A stretch of 23,076 nt of DNA, taken from a virus. Of this stretch, positions 596 to 23,076 are shown piece by piece (positions within the stretch are counted from its first letter, which is position 1; every line of letters starts with the position of its first letter). The DNA is taken from positions 1 through 23,076 of IMG/VR virus record IMGVR_UViG_3300037555_000192; one strand, given 5' to 3'. Below the pieces are notes generated by a model. The model did no database searches and was not told the DNA's origin. It saw only the letters and a list, made by a program, of their open reading frames with translations. The position numbers were made by a program, and so were the translations under genes.

Positions 596-601
596 TGGTT
601 C

Positions 602-1543: not shown

Positions 1544-1547
1544 TGGT

Positions 1548-4225: not shown

Positions 4226-4265
4226 GCGTCACCGCATCGCATTCGTCCGATGTTTCCCAAGCCAT
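4218..4265 (-). CDS. Possible 15-residue coupled ORF
   Basis: The ATG lies in a TGATG overlap with the stop of the 155-residue gene, and the frame stops after 15 codons inside the next short ORF. It may serve only to hand ribosomes across the 99-bp gap between 4166 and 4265. No function can be read from it. Confidence 0.15.
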   Translation of the reverse strand: MAWETSDECDAVTHG

Positions 4266-4732: not shown

Positions 4733-4740
4733 TTCAACTC

Positions 4741-5922: not shown

Positions 5923-5929
5923 GAGTTCC

Positions 5930-6301: not shown

Positions 6302-6315
6302 GGCTGGATGATTCC

Positions 6316-6465
6316 CTATTCAATGCCCACCGACGCGGCGATCTTTCCGCCGATACTGTCGCCGTGCAGGCGTTTAAGCTGGATGACCTCTAGTTTGGTC
6401 AGTTTCATTGACGACGCTTTCTTGGCGGCGGGTTTCGCCGCTTTCTCGGCTTTTTCCTTACCCAT
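6316..6465 (-). CDS. 49-residue Lys/Ala-rich basic protein
   Basis: This short gene has a strong ribosome site (AAAGGTGA, 7 bases before ATG) and ends at TAG 6316-6318. The N-terminal 20 residues are Lys/Ala/Glu-rich (MGKEKAEKAAKPAAKKASS). The second half, LTKLEVIQLKRLHGDSIGGK, looks like one helix followed by a turn. It lies between two virion genes and is co-directional with them. The basic tail could bind DNA or an acidic capsid surface, but no function is known. Confidence 0.6.
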   Translation of the reverse strand: MGKEKAEKAAKPAAKKASSMKLTKLEVIQLKRLHGDSIGGKIAASVGIE

Positions 6466-6510
6466 CGTAGGGTCACCTTTGCGTGGAATGACGGTCAGTT
6501 ACTGGACGAT

Positions 6511-7047: not shown

Positions 7048-7082
7048 GGCGTATTCCTTTTCGGACGTGAGGTCGTGAGTGG

Positions 7083-7847: not shown

Positions 7848-7918
7848 TATGATTCTTTCACTATTTTCAAGAGGCGGTCGAGTTCTTCATCCGTTCTGTT
7901 GCCTGTTGCTTCTATCAC
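7847..7918 (-). CDS. Possible 23-residue coupled small protein
   Basis: GTG at 7918 overlaps the portal stop (GTGA), and TAA at 7847-7849 overlaps the next ATG (TAATG). The peptide is MIEATGNRTDEELDRLLKIVKES, an amphipathic helix of believable composition. It fills the 67-bp gap between the portal and the next gene exactly, which favours a real or coupling ORF. There is no strong ribosome site. Confidence 0.4.
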   Translation of the reverse strand: MIEATGNRTDEELDRLLKIVKES

Positions 7919-10155: not shown

Positions 10156-10158
10156 TGG

Positions 10159-10710
10159 TTATCCCACTTCTTGCATCTCGGTAAGAACTTCGGTAACCAG
10201 TACTTTCGTCAGTCCCTTCGTTCCTCGGAAGCTTCTGAATATCTGCTCGGACGACCATTCCTCGTGTTGATTCGCTACATGAAGAATGGCGGCCTTGAGT
10301 TCTTCAAGGCTTGCCGGGGCTTCTTCAGGGCTTGCCGGGGCTTCTTCAGGTGCCTTCGGTTGTGTTGGCACCGTTGCTGCAGGGCTGTCGTTGAACACTG
10401 GAGTTGTTTGATCGTAAAGCGGTATCGACCTGGGGGCTTTCTTCTCTGGTACCGTGGCCTGCGACACCTCGGAGAACACACCGTCACGCTGCCGATTGTG
10501 GGGGTGGCGTTCGAGGTCTAGGTGGTTAGTGTGCTTGATGCCTTCTACGTAGCGCATCTGTCCACGTGACAGGATGGCCAAGTTGGCCACCGTTCCTTGC
10601 TCGTTGACACTGATGTCTTCTATCCACGCCACGCGGGCCTCGCTGTAGACGGGGTCGCCTTCAGGGTAGAAATAGACTTGTGAACCTTTGCGAAGGGGGG
10701 AATCGCTCAT
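10159..10710 (-). CDS. Hypothetical protein between terminase and portal, with Pro/Glu linker
   Basis: The start is ATG at 10710 (AAAGGA 7 bases upstream), giving 183 residues; an upstream in-frame ATG at 10815 would overlap the terminase gene. Residues 1-65 look like a small beta barrel (GSQVYFYPEGDPVYSEARVAWIEDI, split over about 9-33), with KHTNHLDLERH after it. Residues about 100-140 are a Pro/Ala/Glu linker with a duplicated EEAPASP unit. The C-terminus (about 140-183) is a winged-helix-like or helical domain (WSSEQIFRSFRGTKGLTKVL). No family is recognised; it may mediate terminase-portal or terminase-DNA contact by position. Confidence 0.75.
   Translation of the reverse strand: MSDSPLRKGSQVYFYPEGDPVYSEARVAWIEDISVNEQGTVANLAILSRGQMRYVEGIKHTNHLDLERHPHNRQRDGVFSEVSQATVPEKKAPRSIPLYDQTTPVFNDSPAATVPTQPKAPEEAPASPEEAPASLEELKAAILHVANQHEEWSSEQIFRSFRGTKGLTKVLVTEVLTEMQEVG
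10310..10351. repeat. Perfect 21-bp tandem duplication
   Basis: Two identical 21-bp units (10310-10330 and 10331-10351) lie in frame in the linker of the 183-residue gene. They encode the duplicated EEAPAS block. The identity suggests a recent slippage event that lengthened the linker by 7 residues. Confidence 0.9.
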
Positions 10711-10726
10711 TGGTCGTCCTTTCAAA

Positions 10727-12427
10727 CTAGGATGCAGGTCCACAGGTGACAGACATCCCCTGCTTATCCTTAGGTTGTCCACCCTTCCACATAGTGTGGA
10801 AGCTGGCGAAGACACTGTTCGGTGCCTGCGACGGTGGAGGTGGTGGAATGTATTTGAACTGTGCCATCGCCATGTACCGCGTCGTGTCCATCAAGTGATC
10901 TCGCTGACCCGTTGCTGGCCTCTCGTCAGCTTCAGAGCGGCCGACGTGCTTGCGGTATGTTTTGATTTCTCTGACCCAATCGGGGACGTGTTGCTCGATC
11001 ACCTTGAGTCGTGGCTGGCCGGTGCGATTCTCAATGCCGAGCAACTCTCGAACGGCGAGGAGTCCTGTCTCAACGTCGTCGCTTCCGTACTCGAAGTTGG
11101 AACCCGTGTTGACGCACTTGATGCCCTGCCGATCGAACGCTTCGGCGTAAATCTGCCGAAACGTCTTGGCTAGACCGGCGATGCTCTGCCGGCCCATTCG
11201 ACGATCCATCACCATCCTCTGGATCCACCGACCCTGCACCTTGGCTAGAACGGCCTTGGCTACCTGATCGGCATCTTTCATTCGCAGGTACAAGCAGTCG
11301 TAGAGGACAATGTGATCGATGCGGTCAAAGTCCGTTGGTGGAGGCACGGCCCAGAAAGAGATGGCAGTGTAGGAGTGACCTGGGTCCATCGTCAGATAGA
11401 GGGTCCAGTCGTAGGGGATCTGGTACTTCGTCGCGTGGAGGTGCAGCTCCAGCTTGGTCACGTCTGGATGTTCTGGTGGTCGTACCGCGTGAATGTCTCG
11501 ACTGTAAGACGGGTACATCAGCACGGACTCGGTGACGAACTCACCCTTGTCACGTGCGCGAAGCACGTCATTGCCGTAAGCGGACCAGTCGGCAAGGGTC
11601 TTGACCTTCTCGTCTGGTGGCATGTACGGGTTCTCGGAGAACCGGTACTGGAAGTAAACGACCAGTGGATCCTCTTCTTCCTCTTGCTCCTTCGCCCGGT
11701 CACGCATGGTGAGCAGTGCCGGGTTTGAGATTCGAGGCCAACTCGACCAGATCATCTTTCCGCTGTGCGCGGTGAGCCGAGCGTACCACTCGACCACGTA
11801 ATCGGGGAACTGAATGTCTTCGTCGATCCAAATCAGATCGCACTGATCACCTTGCTTCACATCACCCTTGCTGGTGAACAGGCGAATGACGGTGCCGTTC
11901 TTGAGTTCCACTTTCTCAAGCAGGTTGATTGTCTTCTTATTCCAGCCCCACTTGGCGACGTCTGACTCATTGATCAACGGCGGCGACGGGATACGCTCTT
12001 TGGACAAATGCTTGTCGACCGGGTCATCGAACCCACGCCATGCACGCCAGCGTTGCGTATCAGGGTCACGGACTATGGAGAACAGGCCGGGCTTGAACAG
12101 CTTGTCAAAGATCGTGTCAGCAAGGTGATCTTCACCAAGTCCGATGATCCAAATCAGCAGCGGCCACGGTCGCTCCTTCTTGCTCCAACAGAAGCCTGGG
12201 ATCACCTTCCCGTCCGCTCCGTAGACTGGCCGGCGTAGTGCGGCCGACGCTGTCTCGACGGCGCAGACCGTGGTTTTGCCGGATTGGTTTCCTCCACCCG
12301 ATAACCTCGTACGCGCGGGCGAAGAAAAGAATGGCTCTTGCCTGGGTTGAGCACGAAACAATTTCAGCGCATCGCGATCGCGGCGTTCAGCTTCGTCGGC
12401 GATTTGTTTGCGAAATAGCTGGCTCAT
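10727..12427 (-). CDS. terL: Terminase large subunit (packaging ATPase/nuclease)
   Basis: This 566-residue protein powers DNA packaging into the prohead and cuts concatemers. The Walker A motif is GGGNQSGKT (residues 44-52), and Walker B is DLIWIDED with Asp202/Glu203. The C-terminal RNase H-like nuclease shows acidic residues at about Asp348 (LTMDPG), Asp408 (MVMDRR) and Asp514 (HLMDTTRY). Length is typical of the family. ATG at 12427 overlaps the preceding stop (ATGA), so translation is coupled to the small-subunit candidate. The next gene (183 residues) follows after 16 bp. Confidence 0.95.
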   Translation of the reverse strand: MSQLFRKQIADEAERRDRDALKLFRAQPRQEPFFSSPARTRLSGGGNQSGKTTVCAVETASAALRRPVYGADGKVIPGFCWSKKERPWPLLIWIIGLGEDHLADTIFDKLFKPGLFSIVRDPDTQRWRAWRGFDDPVDKHLSKERIPSPPLINESDVAKWGWNKKTINLLEKVELKNGTVIRLFTSKGDVKQGDQCDLIWIDEDIQFPDYVVEWYARLTAHSGKMIWSSWPRISNPALLTMRDRAKEQEEEEDPLVVYFQYRFSENPYMPPDEKVKTLADWSAYGNDVLRARDKGEFVTESVLMYPSYSRDIHAVRPPEHPDVTKLELHLHATKYQIPYDWTLYLTMDPGHSYTAISFWAVPPPTDFDRIDHIVLYDCLYLRMKDADQVAKAVLAKVQGRWIQRMVMDRRMGRQSIAGLAKTFRQIYAEAFDRQGIKCVNTGSNFEYGSDDVETGLLAVRELLGIENRTGQPRLKVIEQHVPDWVREIKTYRKHVGRSEADERPATGQRDHLMDTTRYMAMAQFKYIPPPPPSQAPNSVFASFHTMWKGGQPKDKQGMSVTCGPAS

Positions 12428-12924
12428 GAGTATGTCTTGTCGTCTACGATCGTTTCGGGTTGGACAAACTGGAGGTCAAATCTCTTGGCGAGTTCGATAA
12501 TTATGTTGGGGTCAAAGTTTGGGATGCGCTCTACGATGTCCAGCAGCAGGGAATTCTCCTTGGTGATCGCCTCTACAAAAACTTCTGTGCTGAACATCAC
12601 CTGCAACTGTTCGTGATTCTCTACTCCAGTGAAGTCCACTTGCGCGTCAGCTTCGTGCAACAGCGCCCACACTCGGAAGATGTCCTTGCAGGCGTTGACC
12701 GATCTAACAGACCCTTGTACGTCCGCTGTCACCATCTCCTTGACTTGATTGGCCCAGAGTGCCACCAACCTTTCTATCCCGCCAAACTCCTTCTCGATTG
12801 CATTGGCAGCGCGCCGGATGGAAGTGATCTGATCGCCACCGTCTTTAGCGGCGTTGATCATCTCCATCACGCGGGAGGTGGATACCTTCTCCCACCGTCG
12901 TTTTGTTTTTTCTCGTGTTGCCAT
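12424..12924 (-). CDS. Putative terminase small subunit
   Basis: This 166-residue protein is largely helical. It has a basic start (MATREKTKRRWEKVSTSRV), a helix pair around 20-50 that could be a DNA-binding helix-turn-helix (VMEMINAAKDGG, then IRRAANAIEKEFGG), and a C-terminal helical region (EAITKENSLLLDIVERI). It overlaps the large subunit by ATGA, the position where small subunits normally lie. The ATG follows directly on the T-run of a terminator and has no ribosome site. A downstream GTG/ATG pair near codons 19-20 has a purine-rich stretch before it and may be the real start. The role is inferred from context. Confidence 0.7.
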   Translation of the reverse strand: MATREKTKRRWEKVSTSRVMEMINAAKDGGDQITSIRRAANAIEKEFGGIERLVALWANQVKEMVTADVQGSVRSVNACKDIFRVWALLHEADAQVDFTGVENHEQLQVMFSTEVFVEAITKENSLLLDIVERIPNFDPNIIIELAKRFDLQFVQPETIVDDKTYS

Positions 12925-12963
12925 AAAAAGAAAGCCGCTTGCCGCGCGGGGCGGCGAGCGGCT
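12925..12963 (-). terminator. Rho-independent terminator after the capsid genes
   Basis: On the minus strand, arms AGCCGCT-c-GCCGC and GCGGC-a-AGCGGCT (7 + 5 bp with one mismatch) close a 5-base loop and are followed by TTCTTTTT. It lies between the 180-residue capsid-associated gene and the terminase small-subunit candidate. The T-run touches that gene's ATG. Confidence 0.85.
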
Positions 12964-12993
12964 ATTCCCGTCGTGTAAGAAATAAAACGTGGG

Positions 12994-13536
12994 CTACAGG
13001 ATGCCCTTCACGTTTGCCTTGAAGGCGGTGTTGGAAACACTAGCCGCTTCTTCGGCGATACCGGCCATCGACTCGACGTCGGCAACTGCTGGAGGATCGG
13101 CACTGGTTTTGAGTACCTGACCGTTCGCGGCCATGATGCACTCGTCATCGAATGCCACAGCGGTTCCACCGCTATGTCGTAGCAGCGTTGGACCGGCGAC
13201 TACCATCAGGCAGTATTCGTCGTCGGCAACACCGGCTGCTGGAAGCCACGGATCAAGGAACCCGTCTGGCCGCTCGCCGGAACCAGCGTAGGCGTTGATC
13301 CCTAGCCCCGGCTTGAGGGTGTCAAAGACCACACCTCGTCCAGGCAGCAATGCACCACCACTGATGTTTCTGACAACCTTACATATTGTCGTTCGCCCAT
13401 CGACATAGGCACCGCCACTCTGCGAGCCATCGATTTGCATGTTTGGAAGTTCAAACATGCCACCGTAAACTCCATTGTTAAGGCGTGTAGGGTGTTCACC
13501 GATTGCAAGTCCAACAGCATCCGAGCCAAGTGCCAT
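12994..13536 (-). CDS. Capsid-associated/decoration protein candidate
   Basis: The start is ATG at 13536, 9 bases after AAAGGAA, giving 180 residues; the longer open frame upstream overlaps the capsid gene in the wrong frame and lacks support. The sequence MALGSDAVGLAIGEHPTRL leads into beta-rich repeats with Gly/Ser/Pro turns (GGALLPGRGVVFD, YCLMVVAGPTLLRHSGGTAV). It lies immediately downstream of the major capsid gene, as capsid decoration and stabilising proteins often do. A strong terminator follows. The family is not certain. Confidence 0.7.
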   Translation of the reverse strand: MALGSDAVGLAIGEHPTRLNNGVYGGMFELPNMQIDGSQSGGAYVDGRTTICKVVRNISGGALLPGRGVVFDTLKPGLGINAYAGSGERPDGFLDPWLPAAGVADDEYCLMVVAGPTLLRHSGGTAVAFDDECIMAANGQVLKTSADPPAVADVESMAGIAEEAASVSNTAFKANVKGIL

Positions 13537-13618
13537 GATTATTTCCTTTTTGAAAGTGCCTTTTAATGCTGCCGTGTTCGCAGATCGCCCGCGACCAATA
13601 AAGCAGTCCGTTTTTTGG

Positions 13619-14764
13619 TTATGACGATGCGTATGCGGAAAGTTTCGCGAAGTGCTTCGGGCGATAGCGGGCGTTGCCCCAGAATCCGACATAGAAGAGG
13701 TACGCACGGTCACGGATCGAGAAGTCAGGACCCTTGTAACCGAACAGGACCTTGTCCAGGCTGGCGAGTTCCATGTTCTGCACGTTGAACGCGTAACAGG
13801 TACCGGACGGCACCTCGAAGTCATAGGCCAAGGCCACGCCTTCTTGGTTGATGGCGTCTGCGAAACCCATTCCCTCGGACTCACGATGTGGAATCCGAAT
13901 GCGCTGCTTGGCTTCCTGATGGTTCAAGTAGCCAGCGTACAGCTCGTTGCTCATAAGGAACAACTTCGGACGACCCTTTTGACCACCACGATTGGTCAAC
14001 CAGATCACGGTCTGTCGCAACGCTCGTTCGCAGTTGCTTTCCCACGTGTTGGTTCCGGTTCCCCACGAGGTGGACGACCAGTTCACCAGCAACGGGCTGA
14101 TGTAGTCATACTTGACCGGACCATTTCCATGAGGCCAATCGTTGGCCAATGCGGCACTCGGGCGGTCAGCGGCGGCAAGGTCGGTCGACCACGTTCCACC
14201 TTCGGTTCCGAGAACAGTGCTATGACCGGCATAGCTATCGTTCGGTTGCGCGACAAGATCACCAACAACTGGAGTCGTCTCGGCAAGGAATGATTCGTTT
14301 CCGTGAATCCGGTTATCGTTGCCGGTCGCGTTACCATCGATGAACAACTCGCCGCCGAAATGATCGGTCATCGCTTCCATCAGAGATGGAATGATTTCAC
14401 CGTAGCGATCGAGGATCCGGCCGGGGCCGGCGTTCATCAGCATTTCTTTGTCCGTCATCATGTCCGTGCCGACGTACCCACGCCAGTTGAGCATGGCTTG
14501 ACGCTGCAGATCGTGCCGGTTGAACGTGAGCGTTCCTGAATCGCCAGCGGCCTGGATGGGCTGCTGATTGAACTTGATGTTCCACTGACACACGGGGCTA
14601 TTCGCGCCCAACAGGATCCTGCCATTCTTTCGCAGGTGCGCCAGTAGTATCCGGTTGCGAATGGTTTCGTCAGCGTAACCGGAGAAGAACTTCGGCGCTT
14701 GTTCGTGAATGACGCCGATCCATTCAGTGTCAAATGTTGAAAGTAGTGTGGCTGTGTTCGTCAT
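13619..14764 (-). CDS. Major capsid protein
   Basis: This 381-residue protein forms the icosahedral shell. It starts MTNTATLLSTFDTEWIG (ribosome site AAAGGGGA, 5-6 bases upstream). Visible features fit an HK97-type fold: an early helix (DETIRNRILLAHLRKNG), a strand-rich domain (RQAMLNWRGYVGTDMMTDKE) and a long spine helix (about 118-135). The C-terminal region, KVLFGYKGPDFSIRDRAYLFY followed by GFWGNARYRPKHFAKL (split over about 332-371), matches the usual axial-domain ending of phage capsids. It lies directly downstream of the scaffold-like gene. I see no prohead protease nearby, so maturation may not need one. Confidence 0.85.
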   Translation of the reverse strand: MTNTATLLSTFDTEWIGVIHEQAPKFFSGYADETIRNRILLAHLRKNGRILLGANSPVCQWNIKFNQQPIQAAGDSGTLTFNRHDLQRQAMLNWRGYVGTDMMTDKEMLMNAGPGRILDRYGEIIPSLMEAMTDHFGGELFIDGNATGNDNRIHGNESFLAETTPVVGDLVAQPNDSYAGHSTVLGTEGGTWSTDLAAADRPSAALANDWPHGNGPVKYDYISPLLVNWSSTSWGTGTNTWESNCERALRQTVIWLTNRGGQKGRPKLFLMSNELYAGYLNHQEAKQRIRIPHRESEGMGFADAINQEGVALAYDFEVPSGTCYAFNVQNMELASLDKVLFGYKGPDFSIRDRAYLFYVGFWGNARYRPKHFAKLSAYASS

Positions 14765-14798
14765 CGGATTCCCCTTTGAGCGGAATTAAACTCGTTGG

Positions 14799-16253
14799 TT
14801 AATAGGCGTCGGGATGGACTAGGCCACGAGCAACAGCGGATTGCCGTAGCGCAGCGCCGAAATTCTGACCGTGGTCCTGCGGAATGGCCGCGTTGTTTGC
14901 GGCGCTGGCAATCGTTCCGTTCGTCTGCGGCGTGAAGAACGCCGGGTTGTTAACGGCCTGATTGATGACGCCTGGTTGTTGAACCAAGGTTGGTTGCGGC
15001 GCTACTGCAGGCTGGGGAAATACCTGCGGTTGCGGCGCGGGAGCAAACTGTTGAACGGGTTGCTGACCCCATTGCTGGGGCTGGGGTGCTTGTGGTTGCT
15101 GCGAGGCCGCCGCTTCGATCATCGGTTGCACAGCTTGCTTCAGGAGCCATTCGTCTGGTTGCGTTCCGTAGTTAACCTGGAACTCTGCGGCGAACTCCTG
15201 TTTCCGTTGCTCCACTGCTTGTCCGAGCTGTGTGGGCATTGGTTGATGGTTGTAAGGGCTGATCACGGCCTGACCTGTGTTCGGATCGATCTGCTGCAGG
15301 AGATGCTGATTGGCCGAATAGAACTCCCTTGCCGAATTGACTGAATTACGTTCGGCTTCACGGTTGTCGATGATTCGCAGTATCCGTTCCTCGCGCGCAT
15401 CGAGTTCTTCAGAGAGCCCGTTGTCGTTGATGTACGCGAACGGGTCGGCGACGATGGCCTCGGCGCGTTCTCGCTGAACTGCTTGTCGACGGTTGGCAAC
15501 CTGTGCGATTTGGGCGGCGACGATTTCGTTACCCTGCTTGGGCTTGTAGAGTCCGTTGGCCGGATCGATTTCCAGAAGGGAACCCCACTCCTCATTCCAC
15601 GGTTCCTCTTGTGTCGTAGGAGTCGCTGGCGCTGCTACTGGAGCCGGCCCCACTGGTTCCTGTGAGATCGCTTGGCGACCGATGTCGGCCAGTCGCCTGA
15701 GTTCGGTAGCTTCGTTGGATGCATTCCCGATATCGCCCAGGAGCTGTTCATCGTTCAGGTAACTGGAAACCGGGTACCCCTGCTGGACCAACGTATCGCG
15801 TAGGTTGGTCGGCGATACCATCGGCATGGTTGGCACGTTGGCCGGTGGTTGCTGGTAGACCTGTTGAGGCACCGGTTGTTGAACCGGGGCTTGCACGGGC
15901 TGCTGCAGCGGTTGTTGCATGACCGGTTGTGGTTGCGGAGTTTGCGCTACCGCCGGCTGCTGTTGAGGTTGAATCTGCGGAGCTGGTGCTGGTGCCGGTT
16001 GGCCGCCACCCATTGGTCCACCGAGTTGAAGATTGTCTTTGAAGTCGTATGGCTGAGTCGTTTGAATCGACTGATCAACTGGCTGTTGCCCGTTGCCGTT
16101 GCCATTTGGGCTGTATTGTGGCCAGCTCGTGTCGGCCACTTGGCCGGTATCTGGAGCCATTGGGGTGCCCTGCGCTCCGGGGTTCATTGTTGGAGCGGGG
16201 GCACCGCCTATTCCACCAAAGCCTACTGGCGCGCCGCCAAGTGTAGTTGCCAT
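14799..16253 (-). CDS. Scaffold-like Gln/Pro-rich protein upstream of the capsid gene
   Basis: This is a 484-residue protein. Residues 1-150 are low-complexity Pro/Gln/Gly. The middle (about 160-360) is charged and helical (LLGDIGNASNEATELRRLAD, then REERILRIIDNREAERN). The last 120 residues are again Gln/Pro/Ala-rich before a short helical end (GAALRQSAVARGLVHPDAY). This disordered-helical-disordered plan, and location just before the capsid gene, fits an internal scaffolding protein that is expelled at maturation. It is the first gene of the leftward block, 8 bases after GGAG. Function is inferred; an internal head protein is an alternative. Confidence 0.7.
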   Translation of the reverse strand: MATTLGGAPVGFGGIGGAPAPTMNPGAQGTPMAPDTGQVADTSWPQYSPNGNGNGQQPVDQSIQTTQPYDFKDNLQLGGPMGGGQPAPAPAPQIQPQQQPAVAQTPQPQPVMQQPLQQPVQAPVQQPVPQQVYQQPPANVPTMPMVSPTNLRDTLVQQGYPVSSYLNDEQLLGDIGNASNEATELRRLADIGRQAISQEPVGPAPVAAPATPTTQEEPWNEEWGSLLEIDPANGLYKPKQGNEIVAAQIAQVANRRQAVQRERAEAIVADPFAYINDNGLSEELDAREERILRIIDNREAERNSVNSAREFYSANQHLLQQIDPNTGQAVISPYNHQPMPTQLGQAVEQRKQEFAAEFQVNYGTQPDEWLLKQAVQPMIEAAASQQPQAPQPQQWGQQPVQQFAPAPQPQVFPQPAVAPQPTLVQQPGVINQAVNNPAFFTPQTNGTIASAANNAAIPQDHGQNFGAALRQSAVARGLVHPDAY

Positions 16254-16320
16254 TCCTGATTCTCCAGTGGGGGAACTGAGAGAGAAAAAGGATCCGGCAG
16301 GGCTAGTGATGAAACAACTT

Positions 16321-16358
16321 TGGGAATCGGCTCACCACTAACCAACTGCCGATTCCCA
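16321..16358. promoter_or_regulatory. 11-bp perfect inverted repeat in the divergent region
   Basis: Arms TGGGAATCGGC (16321-16331) and GCCGATTCCCA (16348-16358) flank a 16-base loop between the divergent leftward and rightward gene blocks. It sits just upstream of a rightward promoter candidate, so an operator or other control site is more likely than a terminator, since no T-run follows. Confidence 0.55.
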
Positions 16359-16380
16359 CCGTAAAAGTAGTGAAACCGTC

Positions 16381-16409
16381 TTCACGGTGCAACACCTTTC
16401 GCGTAGACT
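16381..16409 (+). promoter_or_regulatory. Promoter candidate for the first rightward gene
   Basis: TTCACG (16381) and TAGACT (16404) are separated by 17 bp; each box matches the sigma-70 consensus at four of six bases. A ribosome site (AGGAGG) lies 9 bases before the 16443 ATG. Inverted repeats CACCGT/ACGGTG and GTGAA/TTCAC surround the -35 box. Confidence 0.35.
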
Positions 16410-16442
16410 GTTACTTGTATCGCACACAGGAGGAAATGACTG

Positions 16443-17024
16443 ATGACCATTAAAACCTGCTTATATTGCAAGGAAAAGTACGACGATGACACGCACTGCG
16501 AGCCCTGCCCACACGTAAAAATGGCGGCAATGTACGGTCGTTCTGAACTGCCACTTAGTGGCGACGCGCTGCAGCATGCGATTGACGACGACTTCAATTC
16601 TGCGTCGGCCGAAAGCGAATTAGATCGCCTTGCGAAGATTCCCAACTCACGTCCGCTCACTCTAGCGGACATCGTCGGCAACCCGAAACCAACGCCACCG
16701 GAAGACCCGGATGAGCTGGTCGACATCACGTTGATCGGCGGATTGTTCGATGGAGAAGTTCTTCGCATGAAAGCGATTCACGCGCATAATCTTGATGAGA
16801 TCATGCCTCAAGTGAACGGCTCTGGAAAGACTCGTGTTGCCATCTACTGCAACAAGCACGACGGGACATTCGTGTTTGACCAGATGGGTGATCTTGAGGA
16901 GATCAAGGGAACGATCTTCGGTTCAGTTTCCAAGTCAGAAATCCCACAGGTGGAACCGGACGACGAGGAAGAAGACGAGGACGAGTACGGCCTGTTCAAT
17001 GACACACCTTGGACAGATAGCTAA
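16443..17024 (+). CDS. Zinc-finger-like protein with acidic tail
   Basis: This is a 193-residue protein with AGGAGG 9 bases upstream. The N-terminus has Cys6, Cys9, His18, Cys19, Cys22 and His24, a probable zinc-binding knuckle. The middle carries TLIGGLFDGEVLRMK (about 97-111) and a compact beta region. The end (about 176-188) is very acidic, rich in Asp/Glu, then NDTPWTDS. A short metal-binding head plus an acidic tail suggests a nucleic-acid or host-protein interacting regulator, but no family is recognised. As the first gene after the divergent control region, it may be early-expressed. Confidence 0.7.
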   Translation: MTIKTCLYCKEKYDDDTHCEPCPHVKMAAMYGRSELPLSGDALQHAIDDDFNSASAESELDRLAKIPNSRPLTLADIVGNPKPTPPEDPDELVDITLIGGLFDGEVLRMKAIHAHNLDEIMPQVNGSGKTRVAIYCNKHDGTFVFDQMGDLEEIKGTIFGSVSKSEIPQVEPDDEEEDEDEYGLFNDTPWTDS

Positions 17025-17033
17025 CGCCCCGGT

Positions 17034-17087
17034 GGCGGCGGGTCAGTGGCCGATTCGCTCCCGGCCTCACTCCAACGGCCCGCCGCC
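17034..17087 (+). terminator. Long GC-rich hairpin between two genes
   Basis: Outer arms GGCGGCGGG (17034-17042) and CCCGCCGCC (17079-17087) are perfect. The loop holds a second helix (GTGGCCG with CGGCC-t-CAC). It is followed only by CCTCTTT, so termination may be partial; RNA stability or leader control is also possible. Confidence 0.5.
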
Positions 17088-17114
17088 CCTCTTTAATCCT
17101 AATGAGGAGACACT

Positions 17115-17462
17115 ATGTTTGAAGAACGACGAGGTCTTGTCCTGTCACGAGTTATTGAGCTGGCAGTTTCCGGCAAGCACCGCGAGATTGCCATCTTATT
17201 TGTGGACAAAGCGCAGGCCGAACGGGCGCTCAACTACTTGGCAAGGAACCTGGAAGCGCAGCGCAACGACACCAAGGACACGTTGCTTTGGCTGGACGGC
17301 GACGTCACTATTCACTTTCTCGTGCATGATCATGAGCAATCTTGGCCACCCCTACGACAATGCCCAGGCTTCATTTTCTCGGACGTTGACGCGGTTTCCA
17401 GTCGCTTTATCGACGACACGAAATCCCCTTTAGACGCATTACAGGTGGCTACTGTCATTTGA
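17115..17462 (+). CDS. Hypothetical protein, 115 residues
   Basis: The ribosome site GAGGAG lies 5 bases before ATG. The protein has mixed alpha/beta composition: a helix (VLSRVIELAVSG), a strand (EIAILFVDKAQAERALNYL, about 24-42), then TLLWLDGDVTIHFLVHDHE and a C-terminal strand/helix (CPGFIFSDVDAVSSRFIDD). It looks like a compact alpha/beta domain without visible catalytic residues. The hairpin at 17034-17087 precedes its ribosome site. No function is recognised. Confidence 0.65.
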   Translation: MFEERRGLVLSRVIELAVSGKHREIAILFVDKAQAERALNYLARNLEAQRNDTKDTLLWLDGDVTIHFLVHDHEQSWPPLRQCPGFIFSDVDAVSSRFIDDTKSPLDALQVATVI

Positions 17463-17728: not shown

Positions 17729-17742
17729 GCAATACCAAAAAC

Positions 17743-17780
17743 GGTACGGCCGGGTGCGATGACAGCCGGCCGTACCTTTT
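17743..17780 (+). terminator. Rho-independent terminator after the 61-residue gene
   Basis: Perfect 11-bp arms GGTACGGCCGG (17743-17753) and CCGGCCGTACC (17766-17776), with a 12-base loop, are followed by TTTT. It lies just upstream of the recombinase ribosome site. Confidence 0.9.
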
Positions 17781-17811: not shown

Positions 17812-18867
17812 ATGAATGATACTAACACAACGACTGAATTAACTGAAGTAGAAGCCTTGCGAGCTGAACTCACACAGCTCAAGGCTGACAACCGCCTGAT
17901 GCACGAGGCTTTGCTAGCCAACGAGGATCGGCGGAACTGGCACCCCAAACTGGTCGATCGCAAGAAGCCAGTATCTCGACGCGGCAGACACGTGTACTGC
18001 TACTGCCGCGTATCTCACCTCGACAGCGTTGAGTCGGGCCTCGGCCTGGACGTCCAAGTCGAGCTGTTCCAAAACTGGTGGAAGTACAAGAAGACTCACC
18101 CCGACTTTGCCGAGATGAAGATGGGTTCTTATGGTTGGCGTGGCGGAATGGTTGCACAATACGCCAAGGCTCTTGGCGGTCATGCGATACCACACTCTGA
18201 AGGCAAGGGTTATTGTGATGGCTTGTTCATCGACCTTGGTGTGAGCGCTTACAGCAATGCGTTCTGCGCACGGCCGGCAGGCAAGCAGTTGGATAACATT
18301 CTTCGCCCTGGCGACATCGTTGTTATTCCCAAGATGGACAGAGGGTTTCGCAATCTTCGGGACTTCGCCAACACGGAGGCGATATGGCGCGAGAACGGCG
18401 TTTGTCTTGTCTTTCTGTCTCCTGACGTGGACCTCTCGACTGCAACTGGCATGTTGACTGCGCAAGTGATTGCTTCCGTGTCTGAATTCCACAGCGCCCT
18501 GTTGAGCGAACGCATGTGTGAGACTTCCAAGTCTCGATTCATCAGGGGGTTCAACCCCAACGGCGGCAAGGCTCGTCCTGGCTTCAAGCGAACCGGAAAG
18601 AACACGACTCAACCCTATTGGCTTGAACGTCGATTGATCCATGAGATTCTCGTTAAGACCGCCGATGGATGGTCGCTGAATAAGATCACCGATTACATCG
18701 AAATCTTGCGTTCCCAAATTGAGCACAAGAAGCCCGGCCTGAGAATTGTATTCAACCCTCGGACGCAGAAGGGTTACCGCTGGACCGCTGGCATGGTTGG
18801 CCGTATCCGCGAGAACCAAATGAAGTTTCCAATGTCCCCCCTGTTTCCCCATGAAGAGAATAACTGA
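17812..18867 (+). CDS. Serine recombinase (resolvase/invertase family)
   Basis: This is a 351-residue site-specific DNA recombinase. Residues 8-40 form a likely N-terminal coiled coil (EVEALRAELTQLKADNRLM). The catalytic domain starts at VYCYCRVSHLDSVESGLGLD with nucleophile Ser68. It then has an insertion before FIDLGVSAYSN (about 139-149), then RPAGKQLDNILRPGDIVVIP (154-173) and KMDRGFRN with Arg177/Arg180. A conserved block follows (DVDLSTATGMLTAQVIASVS, 205-224, and the SER/E helix). Residues about 245-330 are a helical DNA-binding region. No zinc ribbon or long C-terminal coiled coil is present. ATGA overlap with the next gene implies an operon. It could act in integration, inversion or dimer resolution; no att site is seen. 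Confidence 0.9.
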   Translation: MNDTNTTTELTEVEALRAELTQLKADNRLMHEALLANEDRRNWHPKLVDRKKPVSRRGRHVYCYCRVSHLDSVESGLGLDVQVELFQNWWKYKKTHPDFAEMKMGSYGWRGGMVAQYAKALGGHAIPHSEGKGYCDGLFIDLGVSAYSNAFCARPAGKQLDNILRPGDIVVIPKMDRGFRNLRDFANTEAIWRENGVCLVFLSPDVDLSTATGMLTAQVIASVSEFHSALLSERMCETSKSRFIRGFNPNGGKARPGFKRTGKNTTQPYWLERRLIHEILVKTADGWSLNKITDYIEILRSQIEHKKPGLRIVFNPRTQKGYRWTAGMVGRIRENQMKFPMSPLFPHEENN

Positions 18868-19421
18868 TGAACCAAATAGACCCCAATGAGCGTGAACCTC
18901 TGCCTTTCGGTAACCCCGGCGCGACTCACAACGAAGCGATGGCCCAGGCACCGGCAGAGGTTGGCGTTGTCACTGAACAGTTTGTGATGCCAAGCGCTGA
19001 ATCTGCCGATGACGCATTGCGAAGCATTCGCGACTTAATGTCGCAGAATATGTCACCAACGGACACGGCCGACGCGTTGGAGCGACTGACGGCCGACGTA
19101 TCTGGCGTGTCCGCTAGTTTCATGACGCAGGCCCCACAGCCTGCGCCGGTGCCTCAGTCTGTGCCTCAGTCTGTGCCCATCGATACGTCTCAATCGCGCG
19201 AGCGGAACATGGCTCTAGTGGAGTCGATGAAGAACACTCGCAACGCTTCCGGTCTGCTTGGCCACCTGCTGGAAATCATCGACACGCTTCATCGCCGATC
19301 TGACGGTCGGTTCTCGTATGACGAGGCAGTCGAGTTCCTCTGTGATACCGCGAATGTTCTGCGCGACCCTGACGCACAGAAGACGATTAACCTACTTGCA
19401 GCATCCCCACGGTTGGATTGA
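18867..19421 (+). CDS. Hypothetical protein in the recombinase operon
   Basis: This 184-residue protein overlaps the recombinase stop by one base (TGATG). The N-terminal 30 residues look disordered. A helical segment lies at about 50-80 (ALRSIRDLMSQNMSPTDTAD), a Pro/Gln linker at about 90-108 (PQSVPQSVPID), and a C-terminal helical domain at about 115-184 (LLGHLLEIIDTLHRRSDG, then YDEAVEFLCDTANVLRD). No motif identifies it. Coupling to the recombinase suggests a related role, possibly an accessory or directionality factor, but this rests on position only. Confidence 0.65.
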   Translation: MNQIDPNEREPLPFGNPGATHNEAMAQAPAEVGVVTEQFVMPSAESADDALRSIRDLMSQNMSPTDTADALERLTADVSGVSASFMTQAPQPAPVPQSVPQSVPIDTSQSRERNMALVESMKNTRNASGLLGHLLEIIDTLHRRSDGRFSYDEAVEFLCDTANVLRDPDAQKTINLLAASPRLD

Positions 19422-19579
19422 TGACCAAGCCCACCAAGACCAGCTTGCGCTTAGCGAGGCTGTTGAAGTCTCCGCAAGGTAAGCGGATTCGCGCCCGCGA
19501 ACTGAAGCGCCAGTACAAGATGAAACGACTGATGATCGCCAGAGATACGGCAGCGATAGCGCACAGAGAAGAAGACTAG
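19421..19579 (+). CDS. 52-residue basic protein
   Basis: ATG at 19421 overlaps the preceding stop (TGATG). The peptide is rich in Lys/Arg (KSPQGKRIRARELKRQYKMK), with a helical C-terminus, so nucleic-acid binding is likely. It is the last gene of the recombinase operon. Its size and charge are compatible with an excisionase-like helper, but no signature is present. Its TAG stop overlaps the convergent minus-strand frame in the sequence CTAG. Confidence 0.6.
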   Translation: MTKPTKTSLRLARLLKSPQGKRIRARELKRQYKMKRLMIARDTAAIAHREED

Positions 19580-19695
19580 ATTTCGCCTTCGCCGATCTCG
19601 CATTCCATCAGGTCAGACTCGGCCTGTTTGTACGCCGTGCATGCGTCACCTTTGAGCATGTATAGCGAGTCGCGGATCTCCCGCAGGGTGTTGAT
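19576..19695 (-). other. Out-of-frame continuation of the membrane coiled-coil gene
   Basis: In the frame one base ahead of the gene at 19646-19870, the minus strand reads INTLREIRDSLYMLKGDA and continues to TAG at 19576-19578. It has no ATG with a ribosome site, but it continues the helical pattern of the upstream frame. A +1 shift near 19696 would give one product of about 97 residues. It may be a mutation, an assembly error or programmed frameshifting. Confidence 0.5.
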
Positions 19696-19870
19696 CCTCT
19701 TCCGTGAGGCGTATGACTTCAGCAAGTTGACTCTGAATTTGTATCAGCATGGGAATCACATCAGATGACAGTGGTATTGGTGGAGGTGGCGGCTGTTGAC
19801 CCCACACTTCATACCAACCAATCAAGAGTATGATCGACGCCGTGAGAACCCCCATAAACCTGTCACCCAT
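19646..19870 (-). CDS. Small membrane protein with coiled coil, frame switches near 19696
   Basis: The start is ATG at 19870 (GAGGAA 6 bases upstream), overlapping the preceding stop by 8 bp; 74 residues are read before TGA. There is one membrane segment (MGVLTASIILLIGWYEVWG), then a run of five prolines, then an amphipathic helix (SSDVIPMLIQIQSQLAEV). After about Glu58 the frame degrades to an unlikely tail (DQHPAGDPRLAIHAQR), while the +1 frame continues the helix. It is the third of three small membrane genes, so a lysis-type or membrane-anchoring role is possible. Confidence 0.6.
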   Translation of the reverse strand: MGDRFMGVLTASIILLIGWYEVWGQQPPPPPIPLSSDVIPMLIQIQSQLAEVIRLTEEDQHPAGDPRLAIHAQR

Positions 19871-20057
19871 CGCGATTTCCTCGCTTGTGATCATCGATTG
19901 CTTTCCGCAACTGTTTGATCTGCTGGCTCATGTCTTTCAGTTGCTTCTTTGGAACCGAAAGTAGTCGCATCCACAGCATGTACGCGCACAATGCTAACAG
20001 ACAGTACGGAATAAATCTAACGAGATCCGTACCTGCCGAATCTGCAAGGTAGTCCAT
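19863..20057 (-). CDS. Small membrane protein with basic coiled coil
   Basis: This is a 64-residue protein with AAGGGG 6 bases before ATG. It has one hydrophobic segment, FIPYCLLALCAYMLWMRLL (about 15-33), followed by a basic amphipathic helix (KKQLKDMSQQIKQLRKAID). The architecture matches many small phage membrane proteins, including accessory holin or anti-holin proteins, but no family is recognised. It overlaps the next gene by 8 bp and follows the 93-residue gene by 46 bp. Confidence 0.65.
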   Translation of the reverse strand: MDYLADSAGTDLVRFIPYCLLALCAYMLWMRLLSVPKKQLKDMSQQIKQLRKAIDDHKRGNRDG

Positions 20058-20103
20058 GCGCGCCCCTTCTGTGCCACCAACGGGTTATGTCTAACCCCGG
20101 AAA

Positions 20104-20385
20104 TCACCCTGATTCAGGCTCGTCTTCGAGTTTATCGATTCTCCTTGAGTGATCTCCGATCTGCGTTTCAAAACGCACCCGGTCAGTGTCGCACTGCGAT
20201 GCGTGCAAGCGAAGTTCGTTGATCATCACCGTCATGTCCCCGGCCATCGTGCCGACTTTACTCTCCAGCTTGGATAGCGACCAGATGCCCCGCGTCAGCA
20301 GCCCAAGAAGTGCTAATGCAAATCCCGCCAACGCGATCCATTCTCCAGTGGACAAATTCTGCGCTGCCGACAAGCTATCTTCCAT
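20104..20385 (-). CDS. Holin/XhlA-like small membrane protein
   Basis: This is a 93-residue protein with GGAGG 5 bases before ATG. It has one transmembrane segment (WIALAGFALALLGLLTRGIW, about 16-35), then a long helix (LESKVGTMAGDMTVMINEL) and a charged coiled-coil end (RVRFETQIGDHSRRIDKL). An N-terminal membrane anchor with a C-terminal coiled coil is shared by XhlA-type and other lysis-associated phage proteins. It is the first gene of a leftward three-gene island of membrane proteins. No endolysin is visible in the window to confirm a lysis role. Confidence 0.65.
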   Translation of the reverse strand: MEDSLSAAQNLSTGEWIALAGFALALLGLLTRGIWSLSKLESKVGTMAGDMTVMINELRLHASQCDTDRVRFETQIGDHSRRIDKLEDEPESG

Positions 20386-20456
20386 CTTCTCCTCCGCTAT
20401 TGGGGACTTTGATATCGGACTTTACCATATACGCATGTAAACAGGCAATTCCCGGC

Positions 20457-20485
20457 TTGACCCATCAATTCCAATAGCCAATACT
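20457..20485 (+). promoter_or_regulatory. Promoter candidate for the 20631 gene
   Basis: TTGACC (20457-20462, five of six consensus) and AATACT (20480-20485, four of six) are separated by 17 bp. It sits in the space between the divergent membrane island and the 118-residue gene and is followed by a long hairpin leader. Confidence 0.45.
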
Positions 20486-20529
20486 GCGTGTGCCAAAGCC
20501 GTGTATCTTTCCTTCCCCCACGTACAAAG

Positions 20530-20614
20530 ACCCTTTCTCCGGGGGTGCGGCCTGTGTTTCGCGCTTGAAGCATGGCTTTGGCAACCCGCCCTCCGGTGAA
20601 AGGGTTTTTCTTTT
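20530..20614 (+). terminator. Terminator-like hairpin in the leader of the 20631 gene
   Basis: ACCCTTTC (20530-20537) pairs with GAAAGGGT (20598-20605), extended inward by CCGG/CCGG after one T-T mismatch. The loop is about 50 bases, and TTTTTCTTTT follows. It lies between the promoter candidate and the ribosome site, so it could attenuate the downstream gene. Confidence 0.7.
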
Positions 20615-20630
20615 AACAAAGGATGGTGCG

Positions 20631-20987
20631 ATGCCGGCAAACCCCGAAAATATCTTCGGACCTCTCAGTGACGACCAGATGCGTGAGATCCAGCTCAAGG
20701 TAAACGTGGCCGGCACCCACCGTCCAACCCTTGATTCCATGAAGTCTGACGCTGTGAACAGGGATGAGATCACGAGTAAGCTTCTGGGCACATTTCTCAA
20801 TGACCCTGGAAGCGGTCTTTCTCTCAGCGCAATAACAGTCGCCCCAAATCCACAAGCCCACACCGAGCCGCTGACCTTGCCGCCGCTGCTAGTCTTGGAA
20901 GAAAGGCTTAGCAAGGTTGACAAGCCAGCGAATCCCAGCCGCGTGGAGCCCATCGACCTCGAAATGAAGAGGAGATTCCGATGGTAA
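20631..20987 (+). CDS. Hypothetical protein, 118 residues
   Basis: The start is ATG at 20631 (AAAGGA 7 bases upstream); an in-frame upstream ATG at 20490 would run through the hairpin leader and is less likely. Visible segments are FGPLSDDQMREIQLKVNVAG (about 8-27), a helix SKLLGTFLNDPGSG and a Pro/Leu-rich stretch TEPLTLPPLLVLEERLSKVD (about 78-97), with a basic end (EMKRRFRW). No family is recognised. Its stop overlaps the start of a 46-residue gene by 7 bp. Confidence 0.65.
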   Translation: MPANPENIFGPLSDDQMREIQLKVNVAGTHRPTLDSMKSDAVNRDEITSKLLGTFLNDPGSGLSLSAITVAPNPQAHTEPLTLPPLLVLEERLSKVDKPANPSRVEPIDLEMKRRFRW

Positions 20988-21121
20988 GCCTCTGGGAAGT
21001 ACAGCGCGTGTACCTCGAAGACTGCATGCGCCGCATAGAGGAAGGGTTGCTAGCGGTGCGCCCGACCATCGACGAATTGAATCTGGAACTAAGCACATTT
21101 TCACGGGAGAACTCATCATAG
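20981..21121 (+). CDS. 46-residue helical small protein
   Basis: ATG at 20981 has a strong ribosome site (AGAGGAG, 6 bases upstream) and overlaps the preceding stop. The sequence is one or two amphipathic helices (LWEVQRVYLEDCMRRIEEGL, then VRPTIDELNLEL). No family is recognised. The last codons form the left arm of a 12-bp inverted repeat with the downstream leader. Confidence 0.6.
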   Translation: MVSLWEVQRVYLEDCMRRIEEGLLAVRPTIDELNLELSTFSRENSS

Positions 21122-21159
21122 TCGCAAGGTGTCGTCGGCGGGCGCTGGTTCTCCCGTGA
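21101..21159. repeat. 12-bp perfect inverted repeat across a gene end
   Basis: TCACGGGAGAAC (21101-21112) and GTTCTCCCGTGA (21148-21159) flank a 35-base loop that contains the stop of the 46-residue gene. There is no T-run, so RNA stability, a protein-binding site or leader folding is more likely than intrinsic termination. Confidence 0.7.
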
Positions 21160-21189
21160 GAGGTTTACGCCAGTACTCCACTATCCGTA

Positions 21190-21239
21190 GGTGACCCGGT
21201 GCATCTCACCAATGCACGACGCCAACACCGGGACCTTTT
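21190..21239 (+). terminator. Terminator-like hairpin with overlapping alternative stem
   Basis: GGT-ga-CCCGGTG (21190-21201) pairs with CACCGGG-ACC (21226-21235), and TTTT follows. Inside, GTGCAT (21199-21204) can pair with ATGCAC (21212-21217) and shares the GTG bases, so the two stems partly exclude each other. It lies 33 bases before the next ATG. Confidence 0.6.
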
Positions 21240-21272
21240 CACACCAAAATCATTAGTCCAAGGAGAAGATTT

Positions 21273-21803
21273 ATGCCCTACGAAAACGCTGATTTGTCCG
21301 CTGTAGACATCGAATTGACCCAGATGGAACAGTACGTTGCAGCCCAGATCGGCATCGCCAGAACCATGCGGAACAGACGCCTTGGAAACACGCCTCGTTT
21401 CGGCCAAAAGGTAGAAAATACATGGGCCAACGACATTGAGGGTGCGATGGGAGAGATGGCACTGGCCAAGTTCCTGGGTGTTTACTGGACCGAGAACAGT
21501 GCCCCGCAGGCCCCAGACGTCGGCGAGAACGACGAAGTTCGCACCACTGAATACGTTAACGGGCACCTTCTTCTCCACAAATGCGACCACGACGACCGCC
21601 GATATTGGCTTTTAACGGGCGTAAACGGGAAATACGTCGTCCGTGGCTGGCTGTTCGGCAGGGAGAAGGACGATGACCCCGACTGGTGGCGAGGGGAGAT
21701 CGATCGCCCCTGCTACTACGTGCCACAGGACGATCTTCGTGCGCCAGAAGAAGTGCAAAGCCACGTTGTTCGCGCGAACAGTGAAGAATCACCTACTTTT
21801 TAG
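21273..21803 (+). CDS. PD-(D/E)XK-like hypothetical protein
   Basis: This is a 176-residue protein with AAGGAGAAG 5 bases upstream. Visible elements are a helix with Glu56 and Glu61 (NDIEGAMGEMALAKFLGV), then PDVG with Asp82, and EVRTT with Glu88 and Arg90. A strand pair follows (YWLLTGVNGKYVVRGWLFGR, about 111-130). This order of helix, Asp and Glu-x-Arg strand matches a restriction-endonuclease-like fold; Arg replaces the usual Lys, so activity is uncertain. The last 12 residues are encoded by a palindrome/direct-repeat element, suggesting the C-terminus was extended by that DNA. Confidence 0.7.
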   Translation: MPYENADLSAVDIELTQMEQYVAAQIGIARTMRNRRLGNTPRFGQKVENTWANDIEGAMGEMALAKFLGVYWTENSAPQAPDVGENDEVRTTEYVNGHLLLHKCDHDDRRYWLLTGVNGKYVVRGWLFGREKDDDPDWWRGEIDRPCYYVPQDDLRAPEEVQSHVVRANSEESPTF

Positions 21804-21838
21804 TGAAAAATCACCTACTTGTGTTCGCGCGCGAACAC
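21767..21838. promoter_or_regulatory. Composite palindrome and direct-repeat element
   Basis: A 14-bp perfect palindrome, TGTTCGCGCGAACA (21767-21780), is followed directly by GTGAAGAATCACCTACTT (21781-21798). Then come four bases, GTGAAAAATCACCTACTT (21803-21820), and an 18-bp perfect palindrome, GTGTTCGCGCGCGAACAC (21821-21838). The repeats are 22 bp apart with one mismatch. It resembles an operator, iteron set or small mobile insertion; no known element is identified. Confidence 0.8.
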
Positions 21839-21867
21839 TTCTGACACTGACAGTCGGAGAATCGCTC

Positions 21868-21896
21868 TTGACAAAGCCGGCCCGGCGCGGAATCAT
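21868..21896 (+). promoter_or_regulatory. Promoter candidate for the 22022 gene
   Basis: TTGACA (21868-21873, perfect) and AATCAT (21891-21896, four of six) are separated by 17 bp. It is 30 bp after the composite repeat element and before an intrinsic terminator in the leader. Confidence 0.5.
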
Positions 21897-21954
21897 CACA
21901 AATGTCAGGTACGTCGGACAACCTCACAACAAACCGGCGAAAGCCGCACACCCC

Positions 21955-21999
21955 AGCCCGCACGGCGTGCCTGACATCACTTCTGCGGGCTGTTTTTTT
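21955..21999 (+). terminator. Rho-independent terminator upstream of the 22022 gene
   Basis: Perfect 8-bp arms AGCCCGCA (21955-21962) and TGCGGGCT (21984-21991), with a 21-base loop, are followed by GTTTTTTTG. It ends 23 bases before the next ATG, downstream of a promoter candidate, as an attenuator would. Confidence 0.85.
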
Positions 22000-22021
22000 G
22001 TACCTACAGCAAGGAATCGCC

Positions 22022-22333
22022 ATGACTTCTCCAATTCACACACCCATCAGCAGCAGAGACACTGGCCCCCACCAATCCATGCCCGATCCAGTCGGCAACA
22101 TCGAAACGCAACTTATGCGATTAAGTGCCGTGTCCGACCATTCCAAGGCCGTAGTGGATGCCTTGGAAGGGCGACTAAACCCGGTTCTTCACTTCGCTCA
22201 ACCAGCAAGTCCAACGAATGTTCCGGCCGAAGCGGTCGGCAGCAGCTTGGCCGTTCGTCTGGAGAGCCTTGTCACGCAGATCGAAAACGATATGGCTCGC
22301 CTTGACAACATTCTGGGCGGAATCGACCTGTGA
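22022..22333 (+). CDS. Hypothetical coiled-coil protein, 103 residues
   Basis: The start is ATG at 22022 (AAGGAATC, 6-9 bases upstream); the longer frame from 21902 crosses the terminator and is not supported. A 20-residue disordered start (SPIHTPISSRD) is followed by a helix (VGNIETQLMRLSAVSDHSKA) and a second helix at the end (RLESLVTQIENDMARLDNIL). Two amphipathic helices suggest an oligomeric helical protein. No family is recognised. Its TGA overlaps a GTG start (GTGA). Confidence 0.65.
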   Translation: MTSPIHTPISSRDTGPHQSMPDPVGNIETQLMRLSAVSDHSKAVVDALEGRLNPVLHFAQPASPTNVPAEAVGSSLAVRLESLVTQIENDMARLDNILGGIDL

Positions 22334-22497
22334 ACCGCGTCATTCCCATCACCGCGATCAGCCGAAGCCGACAAAACAGGGCCGTCGGGCACCAGCGATA
22401 CTGGGACCGAGAGCTGCAGAAGTACGTTTCTCGGCTGCATTACGAGAAACACCGCCATGAACGGTGGATACGGCTATCAGAAAGGGTTAAGCCATGA
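22330..22497 (+). CDS. 55-residue basic protein, GTG start
   Basis: GTG at 22330 overlaps the previous stop (GTGA), and TGA at 22495-22497 overlaps the next ATG, so it fits a coupled operon exactly. The peptide is rich in Arg, His, Lys and Tyr (GHQRYWDRELQKYVSRLHYE), one long basic helix likely to bind nucleic acid. No family is recognised. Confidence 0.6.
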   Translation: MNRVIPITAISRSRQNRAVGHQRYWDRELQKYVSRLHYEKHRHERWIRLSERVKP

Positions 22498-22823
22498 CCC
22501 ACGCCGACACGATTCGAGAGCTGAGAGCCGCTTTATGGCTTGAAATCGGCCGCGACAGGATGCCGAGCGAGTTTGAAGACGAATACGACCGTCAGACCTT
22601 CCTGTTGACGCGTGGTGTGGGCGTTAAAACGGGGCGTCGAGGCCACCGAGGAATGGCCGAACGGTCATGGCACCCCCGAATACGACGTTCAGCCGGTGAT
22701 GGGTTGCCAGCTCGTGCGACCCAATATCAAGTGGGACACCCCAAATCAAGACGAAAACCACCCTGCGCCGACGTCCGAGGTGGCGCAGAACAAAATGACC
22801 CCGGATCAGCCACGCGCGAATAA
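22494..22823 (+). CDS. Hypothetical protein, frame likely switches near 22610
   Basis: ATG at 22494 has AAAGGG 7 bases upstream. The first 40 residues are well composed and acidic/helical (TIRELRAALWLEIGRDRMPS, then DEYDRQTFLLTRG). Past about residue 40 this frame becomes Arg/Gly/Pro-rich and unconvincing, while the +1 frame (22612-22830) reads as a normal protein. A +1 shift at the CGTGGTGTGGG stretch would join them into about 112 residues. No family is recognised. Confidence 0.55.
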   Translation: MTHADTIRELRAALWLEIGRDRMPSEFEDEYDRQTFLLTRGVGVKTGRRGHRGMAERSWHPRIRRSAGDGLPARATQYQVGHPKSRRKPPCADVRGGAEQNDPGSATRE

Positions 22824-22830
22824 CGCTTAA
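22612..22830 (+). CDS. Continuation frame of the 22494 gene, or overlapping GTG gene
   Basis: This frame opens after TGA at 22606-22608, starts at GTG 22612 and ends at TAA 22828-22830. It reads VWALKRGVEATEEWPNGHG, then a Pro/Asn/Gln-rich end (WDTPNQDENHPAPTSEVAQN). It has no ribosome site of its own, so it is more likely the second half of the upstream gene than a separate one. No family is recognised. Confidence 0.45.
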   Translation: MVWALKRGVEATEEWPNGHGTPEYDVQPVMGCQLVRPNIKWDTPNQDENHPAPTSEVAQNKMTPDQPRANNA

Positions 22831-23076
22831 TCACCAGCGCAATAAAAAGGTAAAGGACTGCTTGGAGTGAGCCCCGTACGCCCAAAACAAGAGAGATACG
22901 CATCCGGCCTAGAGGATGCGCACACGCTCATAGTTGGGAGCGAGAGCCAAAGACAAGGCGAATGGCCGATGTCCAGCTCGAAGGGAGTGAATCCAAGAGG
23001 TTGCTGTTCGTCCAAGGACTACGGTAAACCGTTCAAGGTTCACCGAAGAATAAGGACTTACAACTTAGTGCATACC
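22831..23076. other. Unassigned right edge, 246 bp
   Basis: No firm gene is seen. On the plus strand, GTG at 22867 (AAAGGA 9 bases upstream) opens 70 codons to the edge, but with many AGA/ATA/TTA codons unlike the neighbours. On the minus strand, TTG at 23015 reads LGFTPFELDIGHSPCLW, which resembles the GxTPFxLxxGxxP motif of retroelement integrases. Several short hairpins exist (CGCATCC/GGATGCG at about 22899-22921, ACGG/CCGT at about 23021-23032). Confidence 0.4.

Follow-up and report, generated by a model that had tools for sequence, protein, structure and literature searches.

A palindrome-bracketed pair of direct repeats at a gene boundary of a phage genome fragment, a candidate compound operator

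What is the role of a compact 72-base element, at 21767-21838, in which two palindromes stand outside two direct repeats at the end of a gene? The element lies in IMG/VR record IMGVR_UViG_3300037555_000192, of which we analysed a stretch of 23,076 nucleotides (here called the window). The window is a phage fragment with matches to a terminase, a portal protein (weak), a major head protein, a minor tail protein and a resolvase-family recombinase. A preliminary description of this DNA had left the choice between an operator, origin or partition iterons, and a miniature inserted element. We consider the element most likely to be a protein-binding cis-regulatory array, that is, a compound operator, and give this reading a little less than an even chance.

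Anatomy and non-randomness of the element

The five parts of the element are contiguous, as follows:

21767-21780: palindrome 1, TGTTCGCGCGAACA, perfect, 14 bp, of the form TGTTC-N4-GAACA
21781-21798, + strand: direct repeat copy 1, GTGAAGAATCACCTACTT, with a GTGA-N4-TCAC dyad at its start (21781-21792)
21799-21802: spacer TTTA, whose last two bases and the base after it make up the TAG that stops the upstream ORF (21801-21803)
21803-21820, + strand: direct repeat copy 2, GTGAAAAATCACCTACTT, with a GTGA-N4-TCAC dyad at its start (21803-21814)
21821-21838: palindrome 2, GTGTTCGCGCGCGAACAC, perfect, 18 bp, of the form TGTTC-N6-GAACA, one CG longer than palindrome 1

The preliminary description had given this arrangement of two palindromes around two 18-bp direct repeats exactly to the base, and the repeats are identical at 17 of 18 positions. 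It had missed the short GTGA-N4-TCAC dyad with which both repeats open, and the element thus comprises four dyads in a row, two of the type TGTTCG(CG)nCGAACA outside and two of the type GTGA-N4-TCAC-CTACTT inside, with centres at 21773.5, 21786.5, 21808.5 and 21829.5 and spacings of 13, 22 and 21 bp. The claim of helical phasing held for the direct repeats, whose phase of 22 bp corresponds to 2.10 turns (the 21-bp step is also near two turns), but not for the palindromes, whose centres are 56 bp or 5.33 turns apart (10.5 bp per turn), which is not a whole number. As single-stranded DNA, the 76-nt stretch of the element has a strong predicted fold (z -4.0), because the outer palindromes also pair with one another through mutually complementary 10-bp arms (21767-21776 and 21828-21837). 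As RNA, the + strand folds no better than shuffled sequences (z -1.3), and the reverse strand reaches z -2.8.

The element is clearly non-random; chance does not produce its palindromes and repeats. Palindromes 1 and 2 are the only perfect palindromes of at least 14 bp in the whole window. Among 200 second-order Markov randomisations of the window, none contained such a pair (at least 14 and at least 18 bp, within 80 bp) and none a 17/18 direct repeat within 60 bp; 17 contained a single 18-bp palindrome. GTGA-N4-TCAC is found in the window only at the two repeat starts (0.44 expected), and a pair of such dyads within 40 bp occurred in 0/300 randomisations. Elsewhere in the window no further copy of the 18-bp repeat was detected, even when 3 mismatches were allowed, and weak repeat-like matches were not above background. 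Both dyad types are confined to the element within the window, except for one TGTTC-N2-GAACA at 7595.

Perfect inverted repeats are also enriched at the gene boundaries of the same arm, with 10 at five places (randomised mean 0.5), these places including the element itself and one inside an ORF; the others are 16321-16358, 17739-17780 and 21101-21159. The repeats at 16321-16358, in the gap between two gene arms, and at 21101-21159, before the upstream ORF, are perfect over 11 bp and 12 bp, respectively. The former is followed by AAGTAGTGAAACCGTCTTCAC, whose gapped resemblance to the direct repeat is not above background.

Upstream gene and searches for relatives

The element overlaps the end of a gene, as had been described:

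21273-21803, + strand: ORF P0001, 176 aa, phrog_18407, function unknown, with a PD-(D/E)XK-like motif

The last codons and the stop of P0001 come from the element, and palindrome 1 lies inside the coding sequence, which counts against the operator reading. The C-terminus of P0001 is longer than that of most aligned homologues by the element-encoded stretch. At 49 loci with P0001 homologues (a few being the same phage twice), the 500 bp downstream contained no cluster of palindromes and repeats like this one; since these homologues are only 20-47% identical, the absence neither proves an insertion nor excludes regulation. Within the family, G57, G60-E61, D82, V89 and T91 of the PD-(D/E)XK-like motif are invariant, and K90 is nearly invariant and replaced by R in this phage. 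The AlphaFold2 model of P0001 had a mean pLDDT of 76, and its best PDB matches, which include HincII and PvuII, were non-significant. The large terminase gene adjoins the P0001 homologue in L013/L014 and in Synechococcus phage S-CBS4.

A second record, IMGVR_UViG_3300037580_000143, represents the same virus; it matches window positions 1-17360 at >=99.99% identity, extends 5.28 kb further leftward and stops before the element. None of 50,697 deposited phage records matched the terminase, portal or head proteins, so that no related genome was comparable at the element junction. The absence of a relative covering this junction in the collections searched leaves conservation in a close relative without an example and counts against the operator reading. 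For the serine recombinase (resolvase family, 17812-18867, 3 kb from the element), no relative was found in viral contigs. On the minus strand, ORF 1858-3612 contains four to five degenerate coding repeats of ~80 bp (2087-3152).

The motif search in other genomes, proposed in the preliminary description, returned the repeat in its context in no viral or genome contig searched. In the whole collections ten contigs, one viral and nine from genomes, contained the 18-bp repeat. None of them had palindromes or a second copy, and their number is about the chance expectation when 257 billion bases are searched with an 18-mer that has one ambiguity. A looser repeat pair was not found in viral contigs, the element DNA gave only matches of E >= 0.4 against phages and plasmids, and the DNA of the right arm gave no match against phages. 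Contig L004, which matched over 27 bp, was rejected as a relative, as it has no palindromes. The sequence of the element is new to the collections searched, and the kind of element is familiar.

Searching for the palindrome pair TTCGCGCGAA...TTCGCG returned at least 120 stretches, mostly due to chance, and the stricter pair GTTCGCGCGAAC...GTTCGCG, which demanded the palindrome core, returned 30. Many of these 30 were dense GTTCGC/GCGAAC clusters in ORFs coding for VRANSERT-like repeats (L025:1353-1480, L085:585-680, L126:2040-2160, L142:3125-3240, L155:11855-12020 and others), which we set aside as a different phenomenon. The ORFs that bear them start like MxWFKVDDxxxxHxK in several phage contigs, and the clusters might be repeats resembling an origin, within replication genes, or no more than protein repeats of the VRANSERT type.

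One contig found by this pattern search, which demanded these very palindromes, deserves separate mention. IMGVR_UViG_3300009103_000209 (L164, also L212 and G004), an unrelated phage contig of 18.7 kb, carries two perfect TGTTCGCGCGAACA palindromes (ACTGTTCGCGCGAACAGT and CTGTTCGCGCGAACAG) at a distance of 66 bp from each other. They stand in a non-coding gap, with no convincing gene, ahead of the structural genes, as we judged by eye on the translations. The first palindrome is followed by GTGGAAAATCA, close to GTGAAGAATCA of the window, and the remainder aligns poorly. The contig thus shares with the element the 14-bp palindrome core, its pairing and a gap without a convincing gene, but has no clear 18-bp repeats between the palindromes, unrelated genes and a spacing 10 bp longer. 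Chance does not easily account for two perfect copies within one short gap, which suggests that the paired palindrome is a recurring kind of site. Tandem GGTCAGCCTCC repeats are located just before the paired palindromes (L212:1715-1810).

Downstream promoter match, leader and small ORFs

Downstream of the element, the following features were identified:

21868-21896, + strand: sigma-70-like promoter match TTGACA-17-AATCAT, 10/12, weak evidence of a promoter
21902-21916 and 21963-21977, + strand: inverted repeat ATGTCAGGTACGTCG / CGGCGTGCCTGACAT, 15 bp, possible antiterminator helix
21955-21962 and 21984-21991, + strand: intrinsic-type terminator AGCCCGCA / TGCGGGCT, followed by G and TTTTTTT (21993-21999)
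22022-22333, + strand: first downstream ORF P0002, 103 aa, without a family match and with AAGGA ahead of it at 22011-22015

The TTGACA that had been noted downstream is indeed present at 21868; its promoter match is the better of two in 19400-23076, and the element ends 29 bp before it. Chance alone would give about 2 matches of this quality in the 3.7 kb scanned, and this nearness to chance expectation counts against the operator reading. ATGTCAGGTACGTCG starts six bases past the promoter match, at the predicted 5' end of the transcript, and its pairing with CGGCGTGCCTGACAT includes G-U pairs. Because CGGCGTGCCTGACAT, the 3' arm of the inverted repeat, is part of the terminator loop, only one of the two folds can form at a time unless a pseudoknot arises. 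Their predicted energies are -30.6 kcal/mol (long helix) and -32.9 kcal/mol (terminator fold), and the predicted best fold is the long helix up to 21990 and the terminator from 21995. The leader (21902-21999) may possibly be attenuator-like or a small RNA: like transcription attenuators, it has two nearly equal, exclusive predicted folds, the last being an intrinsic-type terminator before a gene, but unlike known attenuators it matches no Rfam family (the Rfam search, leader included, gave no match) and offers no homologues for a covariation comparison. The small ORFs downstream of the leader span 22022-22823, and from this layout we infer that 21767-22022 may be read as one control region. 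ORF P0009 (22494-22823) looks frame-shifted near 22615; the frame from 22603 reads VVWALKRGVEATEEWPNGHGTPEYDVQPVMGCQLVRPNIKWDTPNQDE..., which is more protein-like than the continuation of the listed ORF, and a sequencing error, a broken gene or a programmed shift is possible.

Weighing the explanations

Among the options of the preliminary description, the operator is the best supported, since four dyads of two types precede small ORFs, their attenuator-like leader and a promoter match. The inverted repeats at other gene boundaries of the arm and, with the reservation that the search selected for them, the paired palindromes of L164 also favour it. Binding by proteins, use of the promoter, attenuation and the identity of the regulators are, in what follows, put forward conditionally. 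Dimers of one regulator would bind the outer palindromes and dimers of another the inner dyads, the regulators being encoded by the host or by the phage outside the known fragment, and once bound they would set the activity of the predicted promoter at 21868-21896. Counted from a start site near 21903, the dyads would be centred at about -73, -94, -116 and -129, which is a better fit to activation or looping than to a direct block of RNA polymerase. The leader of the transcript would then fold as the long helix or as the terminator ahead of the ORFs at 22022-22823, and so decide on read-through. HTH_3, S24, LexA, ParB_N and Rep_3 had no match in the window or in the overlapping contig of the same virus; as the genome is incomplete and five families were covered, this absence of a regulator gene is weak evidence. 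Compound phage operators (lambda OR/OL and multi-dyad sites) resemble the element in their row of dyads, the spacing of about two turns and the position beside a promoter and a gene boundary. The element differs from them in its two unrelated dyad types and its symmetrical outside/inside layout, and in that no regulator is identified and the sites are far upstream of the predicted start.

The element could instead be a small replication origin or a partition centromere, where an initiator or ParB-like protein would bind the two 22-bp-phased repeats as iterons and the flanking palindromes would be secondary sites, which we regard as doubtful. A repeat phase of about two turns, such as 22 bp, is typical of iterons, and the P1 parS site mixes two motif types, so the two-motif composite may resemble P1 parS in design; the strong single-stranded fold would also suit an origin. 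However, iteron origins usually combine an AT-rich unwinding stretch with at least three adjoining direct repeats. Here there are only two repeats, most 50-bp blocks near the element have a GC content of 0.54-0.64 and thus offer no such stretch, neither ParB_N nor Rep_3, the one initiator family covered, is matched in the available, incomplete sequence, and a promoter match with an attenuator-like leader follows directly. The origin or partition option of the preliminary description is therefore left without support. A recombination site or miniature inserted element, with the palindromes as TIR-like ends around a core on which the serine recombinase would possibly act, has a very low probability in our view. 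The mutual complementarity of the outer palindromes, the element-encoded extension of P0001 and the presence of a resolvase-family recombinase in the window point in this direction; against it, no 4-8 bp target-site duplication was found when the ends were slid by up to 4 bp, the element is present as a single copy in the window and has none in the scanned public contigs beyond chance 18-mers (in viral contigs, only chance single matches), the recombinase gene is 3 kb away, and 72 bp is short for a mobile element. The insertion proposed in the preliminary description is thus not supported.

A role in RNA, in which the upstream gene's mRNA would carry hairpins that block RNases or belong to a terminator, appears just as improbable as an insertion. 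Each palindrome is able to fold into an RNA hairpin, and the reverse-strand fold has z -2.8, but neither palindrome is followed by a U-tract or T run, a terminator consensus scan lists none here, the + strand folds no better than shuffles, the direct repeats have no part in such a model, and a terminator-like hairpin exists 120 bp further downstream. Slightly less improbable, and still quite unlikely, is that palindrome 1 is a LexA box of the host SOS system that places the downstream ORFs under DNA-damage control, the other parts being phage-specific sites. The LexA motif of Verrucomicrobia, according to Erill et al. in 2016, is reportedly TGTTC-N4-GAACA. Palindrome 1 fits this form exactly and is its sole perfect instance in the window, though the motif is verrucomicrobial and may not be that of the host, and both palindromes of L164 fit it too. 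Palindrome 2, with its 6-bp spacer, does not fit, and palindrome 1 is ~95 bp upstream of the predicted -35 hexamer, which is far, and an unusual position, for repression. A paper entitled 'The Verrucomicrobia LexA-binding motif' is cited in PMC8565304 and PMC7739468, and our literature search for the palindrome core found nothing relevant. Since seventeen LexA motifs have been reported (PMC8565304), fitting one of them is no strong argument.

Returning to the compound operator, a bolder form of it, which we consider distinctly unlikely, is a two-protein nucleoprotein switch of undescribed layout, in which one dimer on the outer palindromes and another on the inner repeats would be coupled to the terminator/antiterminator of the leader, possibly tying phage genes to the DNA-damage repressor of the host. 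Iteron origins and P1-type parS share with the element the 22-bp-phased direct repeats and a second motif type, and differ from it in repeat number, in an AT-rich stretch and in an initiator or ParB gene, of which none was found in the available sequence.

The element offers a precisely bounded putative control site, from which gene control could be approached in a phage that has no deposited match to its terminase, portal and head proteins. If palindrome 1 is a LexA box of the host, gene control of this phage would be linked to the host SOS response, with a hint at the phylum of the host; otherwise, the element would be an ordinary though unusually neat regulatory array.
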